DNA of 64,000 bases. It comes from Schlesneria sp. (GTDB lineage Bacteria; Planctomycetota; Planctomycetia; Planctomycetales; Planctomycetaceae). Made by a program: the position numbers and the translations under genes. The stretch spans positions 124,001 through 188,000 of the forward strand of contig JAQGHU010000022.1 in NCBI GenBank assembly GCA_028291515.1, given 5' to 3'. The notes under the pieces were generated by a model, which was given only the letters and a program-made list of their open reading frames with translations, ran no database searches and was not told where the DNA came from. Of the stretch, positions 3,082 through 32,261 are shown piece after piece. Positions within the stretch are counted from its first letter, which is position 1, and each line of letters starts with the position of its first letter.

Positions 3082-3894
3082 ATGTCCGCCCCTCGAATTT
3101 GCGTTCTGCGAGCCCCGGGAACGAATTGCGATACCGAAACCGCGTATGCCTTTGATTCCTGCGGTGGACAGTCCGAGCGAATTCATCTGTTCCAGCTGCT
3201 GGAACAACCCGCTCTGCTCGATGAATTCCAGATCCTCTGTATTCCCGGCGGATTCAGCTACGGCGACGATATCGGGGCAGGTGTCGTCTTCGCCAGCCAG
3301 CTTCGTGGCCACCTTGGTGACGCCATGCGTCGCTTCCTGTCGGCCGAAAAACTGGTGCTCGGCATCTGCAATGGATTCCAAACGCTGCTGAAGGCGGGAA
3401 TCCTTCCCGGTGGCACCGGCGAGTCGTTAGCGGCGGAACGCCAAGACGCCGAGGCGACGCTGACCTGGAACCTGAACGGCAAATACACCGCTCGCTGGGT
3501 TCATCTCAAAGTCACTGCGCCTGGAAACGTATTTCTGCGCGGGATCGATGAGCTTGATCTGCCGATTGCTCACGCCGAAGGACGGATCGTTGTGCGTAGC
3601 GATCAAGTGTTGAACGATTGGCGCGAACGCGGCCAGATCGCACTCAGCTATGCCGAATGGTCACCGGTCGAATCCGGATCCAATCCGATCAACGATCGTT
3701 GGACTGCGAATCCAAACGGTTCGACAATGGACATCGCCGGACTGGGTGATCCCACCGGCCGCATCCTGGGGCTGATGCCGCATCCTGAACGATTCCTGTT
3801 CGGGACGCAGCATCCGCAGTGGACACGACTCGGTCTGACCGGCGATGGCGCTGGGCGTCAGATCTTCAAGAATGCCGTCGAGTACTTCAACTAG
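3082..3894 (+). CDS. purQ: Phosphoribosylformylglycinamidine synthase subunit PurQ (glutamine amidotransferase)
   Basis: MSAPRICVLRAPGTNCDTE..., IPGGFSYGDDIGAGVVFA, LGICNGFQ, GLMPHPER motifs. Confidence 0.95.
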   Translation: MSAPRICVLRAPGTNCDTETAYAFDSCGGQSERIHLFQLLEQPALLDEFQILCIPGGFSYGDDIGAGVVFASQLRGHLGDAMRRFLSAEKLVLGICNGFQTLLKAGILPGGTGESLAAERQDAEATLTWNLNGKYTARWVHLKVTAPGNVFLRGIDELDLPIAHAEGRIVVRSDQVLNDWRERGQIALSYAEWSPVESGSNPINDRWTANPNGSTMDIAGLGDPTGRILGLMPHPERFLFGTQHPQWTRLGLTGDGAGRQIFKNAVEYFN

Positions 3895-11264: not shown

Positions 11265-12365
11265 TCAACAATTGGCGAGCGCTTGAATTTGGTCGACCAC
11301 ACGGGAAGCGGCGTCGGGGATGGACAACTGTTTCGCTGCGTCACTCATTCGTTGGCGAAGCGACTCATCGGCCAGCAACTCGTGCAACTGCGCAGTCAGT
11401 CTCTGCGCGGTGTCTTCAGTCGTGGTGCCATGTTCGATGACGATTGCTGCTCCACGAGTCTGCAACGAATTTGCATTGGCTCGCTGGTGGTCATCCGCCG
11501 CGTGTTGATAGGGGACCAGCACCATCGGCAGTCCACAACACGTCAATTCAGCGATTGTCGTCGCACCGGCACGAGAGATGACAACCGAAGCGGCCCGATA
11601 GCGTGCTGCCATGTCGTCGAAAAAAGGTCGTACCTCCGCATCAACGGATTGCTGTTGATAGGCAAGTCGAACCGAGTCTGCTAGTCGTGGACCCGTTTGA
11701 TGCACGATTCGCCAACCAACGAGCGGTTTACCGACTTGCCCCACCGCCTCCATCACTGCTTCATTGAGCGAGTCCGCACCTTGGCTGCCACCGAGGACCA
11801 GCAACTCCATTCGCGGTGCAGGCTGTCGAACTTCTTGAGCCAGTCGCGAGATCTCCTGACGTACCGGATTGCCGGTCACTTCCACTCGCTTCGCAGTCGG
11901 CAACCGATCCGTCGCTTCGGCAAAGGATGTGCAGACGACGGCGGCCGAAGACGCCAGCCACCGAGTCGTTCGGCCAGGGATGACATTTTGTTCGAGCAGC
12001 ACGATGGGAACACTTGCTCGCGCGGCCGCCCAGACCACGGGGGCACTCGCGTAACCTCCCAAACCAATGACAATCGTCGGCGATGTTTCTCGAATCAGCC
12101 CCTTGGCTGCTCGCCAGGCTCGCCAGTTCCGGAAGACAAACCGCAATGGACGGCGCTTCAGGGCGCTGAGCGATTCGACGGGGAGCGGCCGATGCTCAAG
12201 CTGATAGCGCGCCAGAATCGACGACTCCAGATCCTTCTCCGAGCCAATGAACATCACTCGGCAGTCGGGTTCTCGTCGCAATAATTCGAGCGCGACGGCA
12301 ATTCCGGGAAACAAGTGTCCCCCGGTGCCACCCCCTGCAAAGAGATAAGTCCGTTTTGTTGCCAT
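11265..12365 (-). CDS. murG: UDP-N-acetylglucosamine--N-acetylmuramyl transferase
   Basis: MATKRTYLFAGGGTGGHLFPGIAVA, VIGLGGYASAP, EQNVIPGRTTRW, GGSQGADSLN, SRAGATTIAEL. Confidence 0.95.
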   Translation of the reverse strand: MATKRTYLFAGGGTGGHLFPGIAVALELLRREPDCRVMFIGSEKDLESSILARYQLEHRPLPVESLSALKRRPLRFVFRNWRAWRAAKGLIRETSPTIVIGLGGYASAPVVWAAARASVPIVLLEQNVIPGRTTRWLASSAAVVCTSFAEATDRLPTAKRVEVTGNPVRQEISRLAQEVRQPAPRMELLVLGGSQGADSLNEAVMEAVGQVGKPLVGWRIVHQTGPRLADSVRLAYQQQSVDAEVRPFFDDMAARYRAASVVISRAGATTIAELTCCGLPMVLVPYQHAADDHQRANANSLQTRGAAIVIEHGTTTEDTAQRLTAQLHELLADESLRQRMSDAAKQLSIPDAASRVVDQIQALANC

Positions 12366-12426
12366 CCGTGAATTCGTCTCTGTCAGAGAGAATACTGGCC
12401 GTGTACACGAGAAAGCATGCCAAACG

Positions 12427-27757: not shown

Positions 27758-28002
27758 TGGCCTCTTCTTCGGGCGTGAGCCTCCTTGCTGCAGCGATCTC
27801 ATTGGACACCGTAGCTCCCAGTGGTGACATCCAAACGACTACCATCGGACCGTCGAAAAAGATTTCTCAAAATCCGCGAACTTTTCTTTCGCGAGTGCTG
27901 TCTTAATAGGGACATGCTGCAAACTGATTGCGGCAAGATCTGAATCAACCAAGTCATCACGACGTTACGATAGGGTGGTCTGTCGATCATGTGCTACAAA
28001 CG

Positions 28003-28172
28003 GCTGATGTCCGAGAGCGAACAAAACCCAGTGGGTCAATTGGCAGCAACGCCAATTCGATTCGCCACGCAATCGGTGTGCTTCGGCGTGCTGCCCAACG
28101 GCGGCACGAATCCGAATTGCGCAGGCTTGTTTGGCGAGGACCTCCCGCTGCGCCTGCTCACGTGACATCGGC
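28003..28172 (+). ncRNA. Candidate structured ncRNA (6S-RNA-like architecture possible)
   Basis: Closing stem GCTGATGTC/GACATCGGC; internal AATTGGC-agcaac-GCCAATT, CGTGCTGCC-caac-GGCGGCACG, CGCAATCGG/CCGAATTGCG, CGCCA/TGGCG; no plausible CDS; strong terminator follows. Confidence 0.5.
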
Positions 28173-28196
28173 CCTTAGGCCTCCGCAAGCTCTTAG

Positions 28197-28232
28197 AAGC
28201 CCGGTGTCACACAACTGACACCGGGCTTTTTT
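28197..28232 (+). terminator. Strong intrinsic terminator
   Basis: AAGCCCGGTGTCA-cacaac-TGACACCGGGCTT followed by TTTT. Confidence 0.9.
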
Positions 28233-28261: not shown

Positions 28262-28333
28262 GGGCTGGTAGCTGAGACGGTATAGCGCCTGGCTGAAGAC
28301 CAGGAGAGAAGGATTCGAGCGCCTTCCAGCCCA
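28262..28333 (+). tRNA. tRNA-Phe(GAA), non-canonical
   Basis: GGGCTGG TA GCTG AGACGGTA TAGC G CCTGG CTGAAGA CCAGG AGAG AAGGA TTCGAGC GCCTT CCAGCCC A; A53.G61 mismatch. Confidence 0.8.
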
Positions 28334-28357
28334 TTTCCGCGGCACAGCCACGGAAAT
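28333..28357. repeat. Triloop hairpin H1 abutting tRNA-Phe 3' end
   Basis: ATTTCCGCGGC-aca-GCCACGGAAAT. Confidence 0.75.
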
Positions 28358-28444
28358 AAAGCAGTAGAGCGGAGGAAGTAGTAAGGAGACAAGAACGAGC
28401 CTCAACCGCTCGTACTGCGGTCTACTCTCTACTTTCCACTCTCT
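28358..28444 (+). repeat. 87-bp spacer direct repeat, copy 1
   Basis: AAAGCAGTAGAGCGGAGGAAGTAGTAAGGAGACAAGAACGAGCCTCAACCGCTCGTACTGCGGTCTACTCTCTACTTTCCACTCTCT. Confidence 0.9.
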
Positions 28445-28465
28445 AGTTTTTCACAACACGCACAC

Positions 28466-28537
28466 GGCCCGTTCGACTTCTGGTGAGGTTGCCAGTCTTT
28501 CACGCTGGCCAGGTGGGTTCGAATCCCACACGGGTCA
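28466..28537 (+). tRNA. tRNA-Glu(TTC)
   Basis: GGCCCGT TC GACT TCTGGTGA GGTT G CCAGT CTTTCAC GCTGG CCAG GTGGG TTCGAAT CCCAC ACGGGTC A. Confidence 0.85.
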
Positions 28538-28547
28538 CTTCAGTATT

Positions 28548-28619
28548 CAGAATGTAGGGGAGCGGTACCCCGCGTGGTCTGGGCCCACGAGGTCGTCGGT
28601 TCGAATCCGGCCATTCTGA
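28548..28619 (+). tRNA. tRNA-Pro(TGG), C33
   Basis: CAGAATG TA GGGG AGCGGTA CCCC G CGTGG TCTGGGC CCACG AGGTC GTCGG TTCGAAT CCGGC CATTCTG A; retains C1-G72/A73. Confidence 0.8.
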
Positions 28620-28643
28620 TTCATGCAGCAAAGCTGCATGAAT
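28619..28643. repeat. Triloop hairpin H2 abutting tRNA-Pro 3' end
   Basis: ATTCATGCAGC-aaa-GCTGCATGAAT (11 bp perfect). Confidence 0.85.
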
Positions 28644-28730
28644 AGAGCAGTCGAGCGGAGAAAATAGTAAGTAGTCAAGAACGAGCCTCCACCGCTCGTA
28701 CTGCGGTCTACTCTCTACTTTCCACTCTCT
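28644..28730 (+). repeat. 87-bp spacer direct repeat, copy 2
   Basis: AGAGCAGTCGAGCGGAGAAAATAGTAAGTAGTCAAGAACGAGCCTCCACCGCTCGTACTGCGGTCTACTCTCTACTTTCCACTCTCT. Confidence 0.9.
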
Positions 28731-28774
28731 TCTTCTCCACTTGATCAATGCGAGAGTCAACAGTTAGCAGCCAA

Positions 28775-28845
28775 CGCCTGGTGATGTAACGGCAGCATGT
28801 TGTCCTGATAAGGCGACAGCAGTGGTTCAACTCCACTCCAGGCGA
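28775..28845 (+). tRNA. tRNA-Ile(GAT), non-canonical
   Basis: CGCCTGG TG ATG TAACGGCAG CAT G TTGTC CTGATAA GGCGA CAGC AGTGG TTCAACT CCACT CCAGGCG A. Confidence 0.75.
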
Positions 28846-28937
28846 GTCACTGCCAGCGATAGTCGTTTCGAATGAGACCAAGGTCACAAATACCATGACA
28901 AGATTTCGCGAGTACAAACGTCACCACTTCCTCACCT

Positions 28938-29009
28938 GGGGACGTGGTGTAACGGCAGCACATCAGGCTTTTACCCTGACAGGCGAGGGTTCGAATCCCT
29001 CCGACCCCA
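28938..29009 (+). tRNA. tRNA-Lys(TTT), A5.A68 mismatch
   Basis: GGGGACG TG GTG TAACGGCAG CAC A TCAGG CTTTTAC CCTGA CAGGC GAGGG TTCGAAT CCCTC CGACCCC A. Confidence 0.8.
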
Positions 29010-29026
29010 CTGCGGCTGCGCCGCAG
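29010..29026. repeat. Triloop hairpin H3 abutting tRNA-Lys 3' end
   Basis: CTGCGGC-tgc-GCCGCAG followed by purine-rich GAGAGAGTGG. Confidence 0.75.
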
Positions 29027-29091
29027 AGAGAGTGGATACGAGAGAGTTGAAAGTAGACCAGAGTACTCTCCCGAGTCTTCTCAGCAACTTT

Positions 29092-29163
29092 GCACGGATC
29101 CTCTAGTGGCGAAGAGTCCGCATTCGTAATGCGGCAACGTGGGTTCGAGTCCCACTCTGTGCT
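29092..29163 (+). tRNA. tRNA-Thr(CGT)
   Basis: GCACGGA TC CTC TAGTGGCGAA GAG T CCGCA TTCGTAA TGCGG CAAC GTGGG TTCGAGT CCCAC TCTGTGC T. Confidence 0.8.
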
Positions 29164-29227
29164 TTTTCATCCGCGATGACGAATGTGATTGTGATTGGAT
29201 GTCAGTCGCGCGATGGGTGACTAACAG

Positions 29228-29243
29228 GCTCTTTGACAAATTG
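29228..29243 (+). promoter_or_regulatory. boxA-like antitermination motif
   Basis: GCTCTTTGACAAATTG resembles bacterial rrn boxA (TGCTCTTTAACA). Confidence 0.35.
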
Positions 29244-29323
29244 TAAAAGATCAATTACCGAGGCGAACCCATTTGCCGCACGGACCGTCATCGGTTCGTA
29301 CGTCAATGGATCACTCGGAACAA

Positions 29324-29394
29324 GCACCCATGACGTAGCGGAAGCGTACCGTCTTGCCATGGCGGAGGTGCCGGTTCAACTCCGGCTGGGTGCA
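29324..29394 (+). tRNA. tRNA-Gly(GCC), A73
   Basis: GCACCCA TG ACG TAGCGGAAG CGT A CCGTC TTGCCAT GGCGG AGGT GCCGG TTCAACT CCGGC TGGGTGC A. Confidence 0.8.
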
Positions 29395-29453
29395 TTCAGT
29401 TGTTGGTTCATTCTCGTTTCGACATCTCGATTCGTTGTCGAAGTGAATCGTTT

Positions 29454-29525
29454 GGGTCGGTAGCTCAGCGGCAGAGCAGGTGTTTGTTAAACACCCGCGC
29501 GTGGGTTCGAGTCCCACCCTTCCCT
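29454..29525 (+). tRNA. tRNA-Asn(GTT), two acceptor mismatches
   Basis: GGGTCGG TA GCTC AGCGGCA GAGC A GGTGT TTGTTAA ACACC CGCGC GTGGG TTCGAGT CCCAC CCTTCCC T. Confidence 0.8.
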
Positions 29526-29629
29526 CTTGATACCTGTCGTTTCGGCGAACCCGTCGCTCGCCTCATAAGTCTCGTCGCCGATGATGTTCTCTTCTTCTCT
29601 ACTCTCAACTCTCTCCCCTCTACTTTCTA

Positions 29630-29652
29630 TTTCTGCGGCTATGCCGCAGAAA
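29630..29652. repeat. Triloop hairpin H4 abutting tRNA-Leu(TAG) 5' end
   Basis: TTTCTGCGGC-tat-GCCGCAGAAA preceded by CTCTACTTTCT tract. Confidence 0.8.
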
Positions 29653-29654
29653 TT

Positions 29655-29727
29655 GGCTTGGTAGGCAACGGCAGACCACTCCGGCTTAGAACCAGAGATG
29701 CTGTGGGTTCGAGTCCCACCCGAGCCA
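29655..29727 (+). tRNA. tRNA-Leu(TAG) lacking long variable arm
   Basis: GGCTTGG TA ... TCCGG CTTAGAA CCAGA GATGCT GTGGG TTCGAGT CCCAC CCGAGCC A. Confidence 0.75.
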
Positions 29728-29885
29728 CTGATGTTTGTTGTCCTCGTCTAAATTTAGAGTCTGTGTTTCAAGGCGTAGTGAAGGAGGGTGGCCGAGGCAC
29801 GAGCGTCTTCGCGAAGCCCCGGAATCCAGCCGGCAGCAATCCTGCCCCGGCCGCCCTGCATCGGTTCATTGTCAGAGTAATCCGC

Positions 29886-29960
29886 GGCACGGTACGCAAA
29901 CTTGGGATAGCGATGAAGCTCAAACCTTCATGAGTGTGGGTTCGACTCCCACCCGTGTCA
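29886..29960 (+). tRNA. tRNA-Leu(CAA) lacking long variable arm
   Basis: GGCACGG TA CGC AAACTTGGGATA GCG A TGAAG CTCAAAC CTTCA TGAGT GTGGG TTCGACT CCCAC CCGTGTC A. Confidence 0.8.
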
Positions 29961-30139
29961 TTAAACGAAGTTGATTCACGATCTGCGAACCTGCGTTGTC
30001 CTTGCCGCGTCATGGTTGTTGTCCACTCCAATTCAAATAGGGAGTCGGCACACGGAAGTGTGCCTGCTACTCTAAGGAAGCTCGATGAACGAACGATCCG
30101 ATTTGCTGAAGCCCTCTTACTTTTGCCATCACGCTGATC

Positions 30140-30478
30140 ATGAAGACAACTCGTCCTAACACTGGCTTGCCGCAATTGTCCGCGGTCGTAGCCCCTGAAG
30201 ATCTGAACTGCGGCGACTTTGTTGCCGCGCTCAACGTGATCTATCAACTCCCTTCTTTCATGTGGGGCTGTGATTCCTCGATCCCGCCCGATGAACCTGT
30301 GCTGGTGCAGTTTCGAGCTCCCAACGCCGGCATGCCACTCAAGATCAAAGCCATCTGCCTGCCGTTTGTGTTCGTGAAGATGCCGAACGGGACCACGCAG
30401 ACGATGGATGTTCGCCAGACGCAGTTTGTTCGTCTGCAAACGGAATATGCCGAGCATGTCTGGAACGAACTGAAGTAG
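30140..30478 (+). CDS. Small hypothetical protein embedded in the tRNA array
   Basis: 112 aa MKTTRPNTGLPQLSAVVAPEDLNCGDFVAALNVIYQLPSFMWGCDSSIPPDEPVLVQFRAPNAGMPLKIKAICLPFVFVKMPNG...; coding-like composition. Confidence 0.75.
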   Translation: MKTTRPNTGLPQLSAVVAPEDLNCGDFVAALNVIYQLPSFMWGCDSSIPPDEPVLVQFRAPNAGMPLKIKAICLPFVFVKMPNGTTQTMDVRQTQFVRLQTEYAEHVWNELK

Positions 30479-30486
30479 GAACCAAT

Positions 30487-30556
30487 GGCAGGCGGGGCAG
30501 GTGCCCGACTGGTCTTCATATGACCGGCTAGCCCGGATCGTTACCGGGGCCTGCAA
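30487..30556 (+). tRNA. tRNA-Met(CAT)-like, minimal D-arm and ATCGTTA T-loop
   Basis: GGCAGGC ... GGGC-AGGT-GCCC ... TGGTC TTCATAT GACCG ... CCCGG ATCGTTA CCGGG GCCTGCA A. Confidence 0.6.
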
Positions 30557-30653
30557 GAATTCTACTTCCGCTCGGTACGAGCCTGCTTTCCATACCCGAC
30601 TGCTCGTCCGAAGGTCTCTTGCGAACGCGGTGCAATTGCGAGGCGCTGCGATC

Positions 30654-30729
30654 GGCCGAGTACGCAAACTGGGAAAGCGACCAGATTCAGAATCTGGTGA
30701 TTCTGTGGGTTCAACTCCCACCTCAGTCA
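30654..30729 (+). tRNA. tRNA-Leu(CAG) lacking long variable arm
   Basis: GGCCGAG TA CGC AAACTGGGAAA GCG A CCAGA TTCAGAA TCTGG TGATTCT GTGGG TTCAACT CCCAC CTCAGTC A; C4.A69 mismatch. Confidence 0.8.
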
Positions 30730-30768
30730 GTGATTGGAATGTCTCGTTTCGATTGGAAAGTTGTTGAA

Positions 30769-30839
30769 GGTCCCGTCGTCCAATGGAAGGACGTCTGCTC
30801 GACTCGCAGAAGACGATGGTTCGATTCCATCTGGGACCA
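30769..30839 (+). tRNA. tRNA-Val(GAC), C33
   Basis: GGTCCCG TC GTCC AATGGAA GGAC G TCTGC TCGACTC GCAGA AGAC GATGG TTCGATT CCATC TGGGACC A. Confidence 0.75.
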
Positions 30840-30949
30840 CTGGGAGGTGTTTGGGTTCTGGCGTTACGTGTTGTACGAAAAGATCTCACGATTGGACCCG
30901 GCATCTCGTTCTGTGAGCGCCTCCGACTGGAGGCAAGGATCGAGTTGCG

Positions 30950-32125
30950 ATGAGGAGCAAGCTGCATCTGAATGTGGGGACCATTGGTCATATTGATCAC
31001 GGCAAGACGACGTTGACTGCCGCCTTGCTGGCTGTTCAAGGATCGAAGGGTCTCGCCAAGCCCAAGGCCTACGCCGACATTGCGGCCGGAGGGACCGTTC
31101 GCGACCCCACGAAGGTCGTCACCATTACCACCAGCCATGTCGAGTATGAAACGGACACGCGTCACTACGCGCACATCGACTGCCCCGGCCACGCCGACTA
31201 CATCAAGAACATGATTACCGGCGCGGCTCAGATGGATGGTGGTGTGCTCTTGTTGTCGGCGACCGATGGACCAATGCCGCAGACGCGCGAGCATATCCTG
31301 CTGGCGCGGCAGGTCGGCGTTCCGAACCTGGTCGTGTTCATTAACAAGATCGATCTGGTCGACGACTTGGAACTCGTCGAACTGGTCGAGATGGAAACGC
31401 GCGACCTGCTTGTTCAATATGGTTTCGATGGCGAGACGACTCCGTTCATTCGGGGAAGTGCTCGTGCAGCGATGCTCAATCCATCCGATCCTGATGCCAG
31501 TCGGTGCATCAATGATCTGCTGGCGGCTCTGGACGGTCTTCCCGTTCCGGAACGCCTGGTCGATCGTCCGTTCCTGATGCCCATCGAAGGAATCTTTACT
31601 ATTGATGGTCGAGGCACCGTCGCGACCGGCCGGATTGAACAAGGCGAAATTAGGCCGGGTGACAAGGTTGAAATCCTGGGTTTGGGTGGAACGCTGGAAA
31701 GCGTCGTCACCAGTGTGCAAGCGTTCAACAAGCCGCAAACCTGCGGGTCGGCCGGCGAAAACGTCGGTCTACTGCTGCGTGGGATCAAAAGCGTCGACAT
31801 TGAACGCGGGCAGGTGATTGCAGCTCCTCGATCGATCCTGGCTCATGCTCGATTCAAAGCGCAGGTGTATGTGTTGAGTCATGAAGAAGGAGGACGGCAC
31901 ACGCCGTTTTTCGACGGCTATGCGCCGCAGTTCTTCTTTCGCACGACGGATACTACTGGCCGCACTCAATTGACCGATGGTCAAGAGATGGCGGTGCCAG
32001 GAGACAACGTCACGTTGACGGTGGAACTGGGCAAACCAGTTGCCATCAACCCCGGCTGTCACTTCGCCATCCGTGAAGGGGGTAAGACAGTCGGCTCGGG
32101 CATCGTCACCGAGATCCTGGATTAG
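30950..32125 (+). CDS. Divergent elongation factor Tu paralog (EF-Tu-like)
   Basis: [85 protein letters not shown]; switch I reads [17 protein letters not shown] instead of ..ARGITINTSHVEY.. Confidence 0.95.
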
Positions 32126-32212: not shown

Positions 32213-32261
32213 AGTTAAACCTCAAACACCGCTGGTGGTCTTCGAACCGCCAGCGGATTTT

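Follow-up and report, generated by a model that had tools for sequence, protein, structure and literature searches.

What are three leucine tRNA genes without the long variable arm doing in a planctomycete chromosome, and what controls them? They lie in a 64,000-nucleotide (nt) stretch of DNA from Schlesneria sp. (family Planctomycetaceae; assembly GCA_028291515.1, contig JAQGHU010000022.1; the window, from whose first letter all coordinates without another label are counted), which belongs to contig C109 of the genome labelled G000 (8.6 Mb, 119 contigs; other contigs cited without a genome label are from the same genome). Here 13 tRNA genes in 2.6 kb (28262-30840) are followed by a paralogue of elongation factor EF-Tu (EF-Tu2, 30950-32125), in one apparent transcription unit. 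We propose, with a probability of roughly 0.75, that this reserve tRNA array and its EF-Tu paralogue are a single unit under leader-peptide transcription attenuation which senses the loss of its own tRNAs; the in silico support consists of the array, the paralogy, the leader frame, the terminator and a match between leader and array. The upstream leader attenuator is what is new, the array itself being of a known kind, and in the open-licence literature we found no tRNA operon described as controlled by leader-peptide attenuation.

The leader open reading frame (ORF) ends in ...ACG TGA CATCGG, where GTGACATCGG can pair with CCGGTGTCAC. A strong terminator immediately precedes the first tRNA and uses CCGGTGTCAC as its 5' side, so that it shares this putative antiterminator 3' arm (28201-28210). 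The same element, with an ORF of about 58 codons, precedes both the window array and a second array on contig C24. A pattern search of 171 genomes of the family found the attenuator at 17 places in 13 genomes, with 0 matches for the reversed pattern used as a control, and 30 further loci were added via a covariance model. In 46 of the 47 loci fetched, the leader ORF ends on TGA inside the antiterminator arm, and array tRNAs lie directly downstream in 45 of those 46 (L254 runs off its contig); L247, a strong covariance-model match, has no array downstream. The same layout, with leaders ending in PLRL and a stop, precedes arrays outside the family, in Pirellulales and other planctomycete orders. 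In all 46 homologous loci the leader frame stays open over 50 codons or more, compared with 22 and 13 of 46 for the other two frames, and leader indels come in threes. Covariation supports the terminator stem, with 4 pairs changed on both sides (0 of 500 shuffles), while the arms of the putative antiterminator pair in 90% of cells across 23 diverse sequences, compared with 25-48% for slid positions.

Leader composition follows the tRNAs downstream. In reduced arrays the leaders favour those amino acids for which a tRNA is left, as was first seen by eye in some loci; at L253, for example, an array of Glu, Ile, Leu, Ser and Arg tRNAs has the leader MTRSLRLRISERRDERIARWAISERISRRTAESRQLLRT. For 7 arrays the true pairing of leader and array was the best of 5040 permutations, and for an independent set of 8 reduced arrays (taken from new covariance-model matches, one per orthologue group, under fixed rules) it ranked first among 40,320 with each of four variants of the rules. 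The pooled match gave z = 6.9 in the leader frame and -2.0 to 0.9 in the five other frames, a control by which we rejected base composition and DNA homology as its source. At the level of codons, 19 of 24 in the window leader can be read by its own array (53% in other leaders), as can 13 of 16 in the C24 leader (45%). tRNA arrays have been called cryptic or putatively anti-defence; a leader that tracks the downstream tRNA set is a sequence-based reason to see them as replacements for lost tRNAs.

We infer stalling and antitermination of the following kind. RNA polymerase would transcribe the 58-codon leader, and with all tRNAs present the ribosome would reach the TGA and cover the GTGACATCGG arm, which would let the terminator fold and keep the array off. 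With one of the tRNAs needed to read the leader missing, the ribosome would stall upstream, the arm could pair with the terminator 5' side, and transcription would read through into the tRNAs and EF-Tu2. Because the leader over-represents the amino acids that the array tRNAs carry, the unit would sense the loss of molecules that it can replace, and might in this way protect against tRNA loss. The trigger would be tRNAs that are lost or damaged, as anticodon nucleases could bring about, or some other translational stress.

Attenuators of the trp/his/leu type likewise have a leader ORF, a terminator and codons matched to what the operon supplies, and their competing hairpin, starting from the leader stop codon, would have its counterpart here in the putative antiterminator; they differ in that their operons make biosynthetic enzymes, where this one yields tRNA and EF-Tu, and in that the present leader spans many amino acids at once. 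This classical anatomy would also suit a response to amino-acid starvation, in which a trp/his-like attenuator senses uncharged tRNA and raises the dose of the matching tRNAs, and starvation would stall the ribosome on the same leader codons. It would be a poor trigger, however, because the unit's products are tRNAs, and extra uncharged tRNA would not relieve starvation; moreover, full-array leaders contain nearly all amino acids and not runs of one, and the comparable array of Anabaena reacts to translation-acting antibiotics (PMC10272220). We therefore consider a starvation response unlikely.

Some observations weigh against attenuation by tRNA loss. The ratio of nonsynonymous to synonymous substitution rates (dN/dS) of the leader is only moderately below 1, and ordinary protein conservation was rejected as the explanation of the leader frame since purifying selection is weak, although weak selection is what would be expected of a sensor peptide. 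Despite the complementarity of its arms, the antiterminator shows no significant covariation, as would be expected if the terminator and the stop codon fix both arms. A clear synonymous-codon match is confined to the window and C24 arrays, the permutation tests assume interchangeable loci when in fact these are related, and G000 and most relatives are metagenome assemblies. Finally, the lowest tRNA score in the array belongs to Leu(TAG), with a C.A mismatch in its anticodon stem, which together with the fragmentation of the array suggests that some members may be decaying.

The window holds part of a larger second tRNA set. The C24 array has 15 tRNAs (14 called by ARAGORN, and Ser(TGA) by Rfam), largely complementing the window's own, and smaller fragments hold His, Trp and Arg (C97), Asp and Met (C6) and Cys (C24:108026); assuming that the C6 and Cys copies are accessory, as judged by resemblance, the set would span all 20 amino acids. 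Relatives have it at one locus, with 29-43 tRNAs in fixed order. An HNH endonuclease of about 200 amino acids (aa), whose closest named match is from an uncultured Schlesneria, stands between His and Trp in the C97 fragment, outside the window's part, and in the arrays of 8 relatives. Judged by its high tRNA number and density, its redundancy with a complete separate canonical set and the embedded HNH gene of the C97 fragment, the window array belongs, as a fragment, to the 'tRNA array units', which have been described before. The HNH homologues of Tsukamurella, Persicobacter, Methylobacterium and Acaryochloris plasmids were found to have no tRNA arrays next to them, which shows that this protein family also occurs away from arrays. 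The closest HNH protein in the phage collection to that of the planctomycete arrays (40% identity) comes from a 595-kb phage genome (L104, LR756511.1), with one tRNA nearby.

The mycobacterial tRNA array units (PMC5966550, PMC12803027) are likewise dense, near-complete and divergent extra sets with an embedded HNH endonuclease, and those of M. intracellulare (L190) and M. alvei (L191) have short Leu tRNAs. The planctomycete array differs in being chromosomal and in having a leader attenuator, and an EF-Tu paralogue is linked to it in five Schlesneria-like genomes; neither attenuator nor EF-Tu is described in the two mycobacterial papers. The trn operon of Anabaena PCC 7120 (plasmid pCC7120delta) is also a second set that includes short Leu tRNAs (L189) and a homologue of the HNH gene; it remains silent until translation is inhibited, and its induction by translational stress favours survival, while its control is by a DNA-binding repressor, TrcR, instead of a leader attenuator, and no EF-Tu is reported in the operon (PMC10272220).

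EF-Tu2 is 67% identical to the canonical host EF-Tu (C92) and has orthologues in four other genomes of the genus (98, 78, 78 and 76% identity), in three of which accessory tRNAs lie beside it, the fourth being G012. Between G000 and G012 its dN is 0.008 and its dS 0.239 (dN/dS about 0.03), which indicates strong purifying selection. In G012 an integrative element with phage/plasmid-like genes (G012:C129; L063, 1-5800) has entered at the accessory tRNA-Val 3' end and separates the array from EF-Tu2, for which reason the upstream array is on another contig; the element lies beside the array, not around it, and accessory tRNAs thus serve as attachment sites. A stretch of about 45 nt (GGCGTTAC...TGTACGAAAAGATCTCACGATTG) between tRNA-Val and EF-Tu2 is conserved in four species (window 30841-30949; L064 12390-12514; L065 11020-11133; L066 2199-2087, minus strand) and is a possible control or processing element.

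An earlier note on this DNA, made from the letters alone, had likened the short Leu genes to compact phage-encoded tRNAs. The compact-array style holds, whereas a phage origin of the locus is not supported. It could be what is left of a phage or plasmid tRNA cluster that no longer has a function, as HNH-linked arrays do occur in phages and plasmids, the array is split over several loci in G000 and the Leu(TAG) anticodon stem is imperfect. The flanks, however, are ordinary planctomycete chromosome genes (DUF1559, DUF1501 and a protein kinase, by Pfam), the array is conserved slot by slot across the family, the tRNAs keep their identity nucleotides, the leader frames survive indels and match tRNA content, and the unit ends in a paralogue of the host's own EF-Tu under strong purifying selection, all of which makes a functionless remnant very unlikely. 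Phage tRNAs that evade defence are similarly thought to replace host tRNAs destroyed by nucleases (PMC10264068, PMC11555353), whereas the planctomycete set is carried by the bacterium and apparently turned on by tRNA shortage.

With regard to the short Leu genes themselves, the earlier note was borne out. tRNAs were called with ARAGORN and the Rfam tRNA covariance model, which found all three where they had been placed, and the variable regions were read by hand from the cloverleaf. In each gene 5-7 nt separate the anticodon stem from a GTGGG...CCCAC T-stem, leaving no room for a class-II arm. A fold that would recover such an arm was sought and none was found, the covariance model giving a cloverleaf for all three; minimum-energy folds of the bare sequences were weak. 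A73, read directly, is present in all, and the unusual D-arm common to Leu(CAA) and Leu(CAG) is of the tRNA-Leu type (3-bp stem, A14) with its pairs inverted (CGC/GCG instead of GCG/CGC). Since the genome also holds five class-II tRNA-Leu genes (CAA 88, TAA 86, TAG 84, CAG 84 and GAG 84 nt) and one gene for leucyl-tRNA synthetase (LeuRS), the short copies are extra; a second, array-specific LeuRS was sought and none was found.

The short form is the rule for planctomycete tRNA arrays and not a local oddity. Among unique Leu sequences of these arrays, genes of 80 nt or less make up 17 of 17 for TAG, 17 of 17 for TAA, 25 of 25 for GAG, 22 of 24 for CAA and 1 of 24 for CAG, and the shape is not due to chance, since it returns at corresponding slots in about 80 unique tRNA-Leu sequences from the arrays of other planctomycetes. 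The sole short CAG is that of the window; because it adjoins Val(GAC), in the slot where relatives have Leu(GAG), and shares 82% identity with the C24 Leu(GAG), it is probably a Leu(GAG) copy with the anticodon changed to CAG. Short Leu genes are also present in the HNH arrays of Nostoc, Kovacikia, M. intracellulare and M. alvei, and such recurrence across three phyla offers natural substrates for studying what LeuRS requires. Class-I Leu as a universal array trait was rejected, as the arrays of Variovorax, Acidiphilium and pCBMA213 have class-II Leu.

The array tRNAs are divergent and keep the bacterial identity nucleotides (A73 for Leu, G73 for Ser, C73 for His), and for this reason they are presumably charged by the host synthetases. 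Escherichia coli LeuRS requires A73 and D-T loop contacts, dispenses with the long arm and charges armless tRNA-Leu variants, and human mitochondrial tRNA-Leu is charged without the arm (PMC9976931), so that by analogy leucylation of the short Leu tRNAs by the host enzyme is plausible. Animal mitochondrial tRNA-Leu, too, is recognised via A73 and A14 (PMC9976931), whereas the planctomycete genes are bacterial and the main tRNA-Leu set of the genome is of normal class II. That the short tRNAs are charged with another amino acid and cause mistranslation under stress, an idea prompted by the loss of a feature of normal tRNA-Leu and by the theme of translational infidelity in the Anabaena work (PMC10272220), is highly improbable given the A73 in 103 of the 107 array Leu tRNAs where the position is readable, the Leu-type D-arm with A14 and the tolerance of the E. 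coli and mitochondrial enzymes. Loss of the arm, if tolerated by LeuRS, may aid escape from whatever removes normal tRNA-Leu. We lean towards the wider proposition that planctomycetes, and perhaps other bacteria, keep a complete spare kit for translation, made up of another tRNA set and, in some species, another EF-Tu, which would be held off by an attenuator acting as a built-in sensor of tRNA loss, with a leader made of the amino acids of the tRNAs to be replaced and with class-I-shaped tRNA-Leu as one difference with respect to whatever depletes the normal tRNAs.

Table 1. Features of the attenuator, tRNA array and EF-Tu paralogue in the window.
Feature	Position	Strand	Basis
Leader ORF, 58 codons, MCYKRLMSESEQNPVGQLAATPIRFATQSVCFGVLPNGGTNPNCAGLFGEDLPLRLLT and stop; TGA inside antiterminator 5' arm	27989..28165	+	conserved frame
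Putative antiterminator 5' arm, GTGACATCGG	28162..28171	+	complementary to 28201-28210
Intrinsic terminator, stem 28199-28208 with 28217-28226, then T-tract	28195..28230	+	covariation-supported stem
tRNA-Phe(GAA)	28262..28333	+	ARAGORN and Rfam
tRNA-Glu(TTC)	28466..28538	+	ARAGORN and Rfam
tRNA-Pro(TGG)	28547..28620	+	ARAGORN and Rfam
tRNA-Ile(GAT)	28775..28845	+	ARAGORN and Rfam
tRNA-Lys(TTT)	28938..29010	+	ARAGORN and Rfam
tRNA-Thr(CGT)	29092..29163	+	ARAGORN and Rfam
tRNA-Gly(GCC)	29324..29394	+	ARAGORN and Rfam
tRNA-Asn(GTT)	29454..29526	+	ARAGORN and Rfam
tRNA-Leu(TAG), variable region 6 nt (GATGCT)	29655..29728	+	ARAGORN and Rfam, 40.2 bits
tRNA-Leu(CAA), variable region 5 nt (TGAGT)	29886..29960	+	ARAGORN and Rfam, 49.3 bits
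tRNA-Met(CAT)	30486..30557	+	ARAGORN only, below Rfam cut-off
tRNA-Leu(CAG), variable region 7 nt (TGATTCT)	30654..30729	+	ARAGORN and Rfam, 48.0 bits
tRNA-Val(GAC)	30769..30840	+	ARAGORN and Rfam
EF-Tu paralogue (EF-Tu2), 391 aa, all three EF-Tu domains	30950..32125	+	Pfam
Strong intrinsic terminator closing the unit, the next strong one downstream, after EF-Tu2	32229..32256	+	terminator prediction

Two further features lie within the array of the window: a GC-rich segment (29786-29880) with a tRNA-Ser-like start (GGAGGGTGGCCGAG) and a partly complementary 3' end, which has no ARAGORN or Rfam call and is possibly a degraded tRNA, and an orphan ORF of 112 aa (30140-30478) without a Pfam match. 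The array of G013 (L066) holds another small ORF, resembling an S24/S26 peptidase, and a tRNA-Ser-like gene whose middle is interrupted by about 55 inserted nt (3540-3675, minus strand). Anticodons also vary: the accessory tRNA-Asn of the C24 array has ATT (L061, 8310-8385), where its G012 orthologue has GTT, and in G008, whose one-tRNA array has its own leader and EF-Tu2 (L064), the tRNA in the Val(GAC) slot has the anticodon GGA and is called Ser (12318-12389), which would reflect a change of anticodon or of identity. In G135 (L237) ARAGORN called a SeC(TCA) tRNA within the array, 4187 nt past the attenuator.
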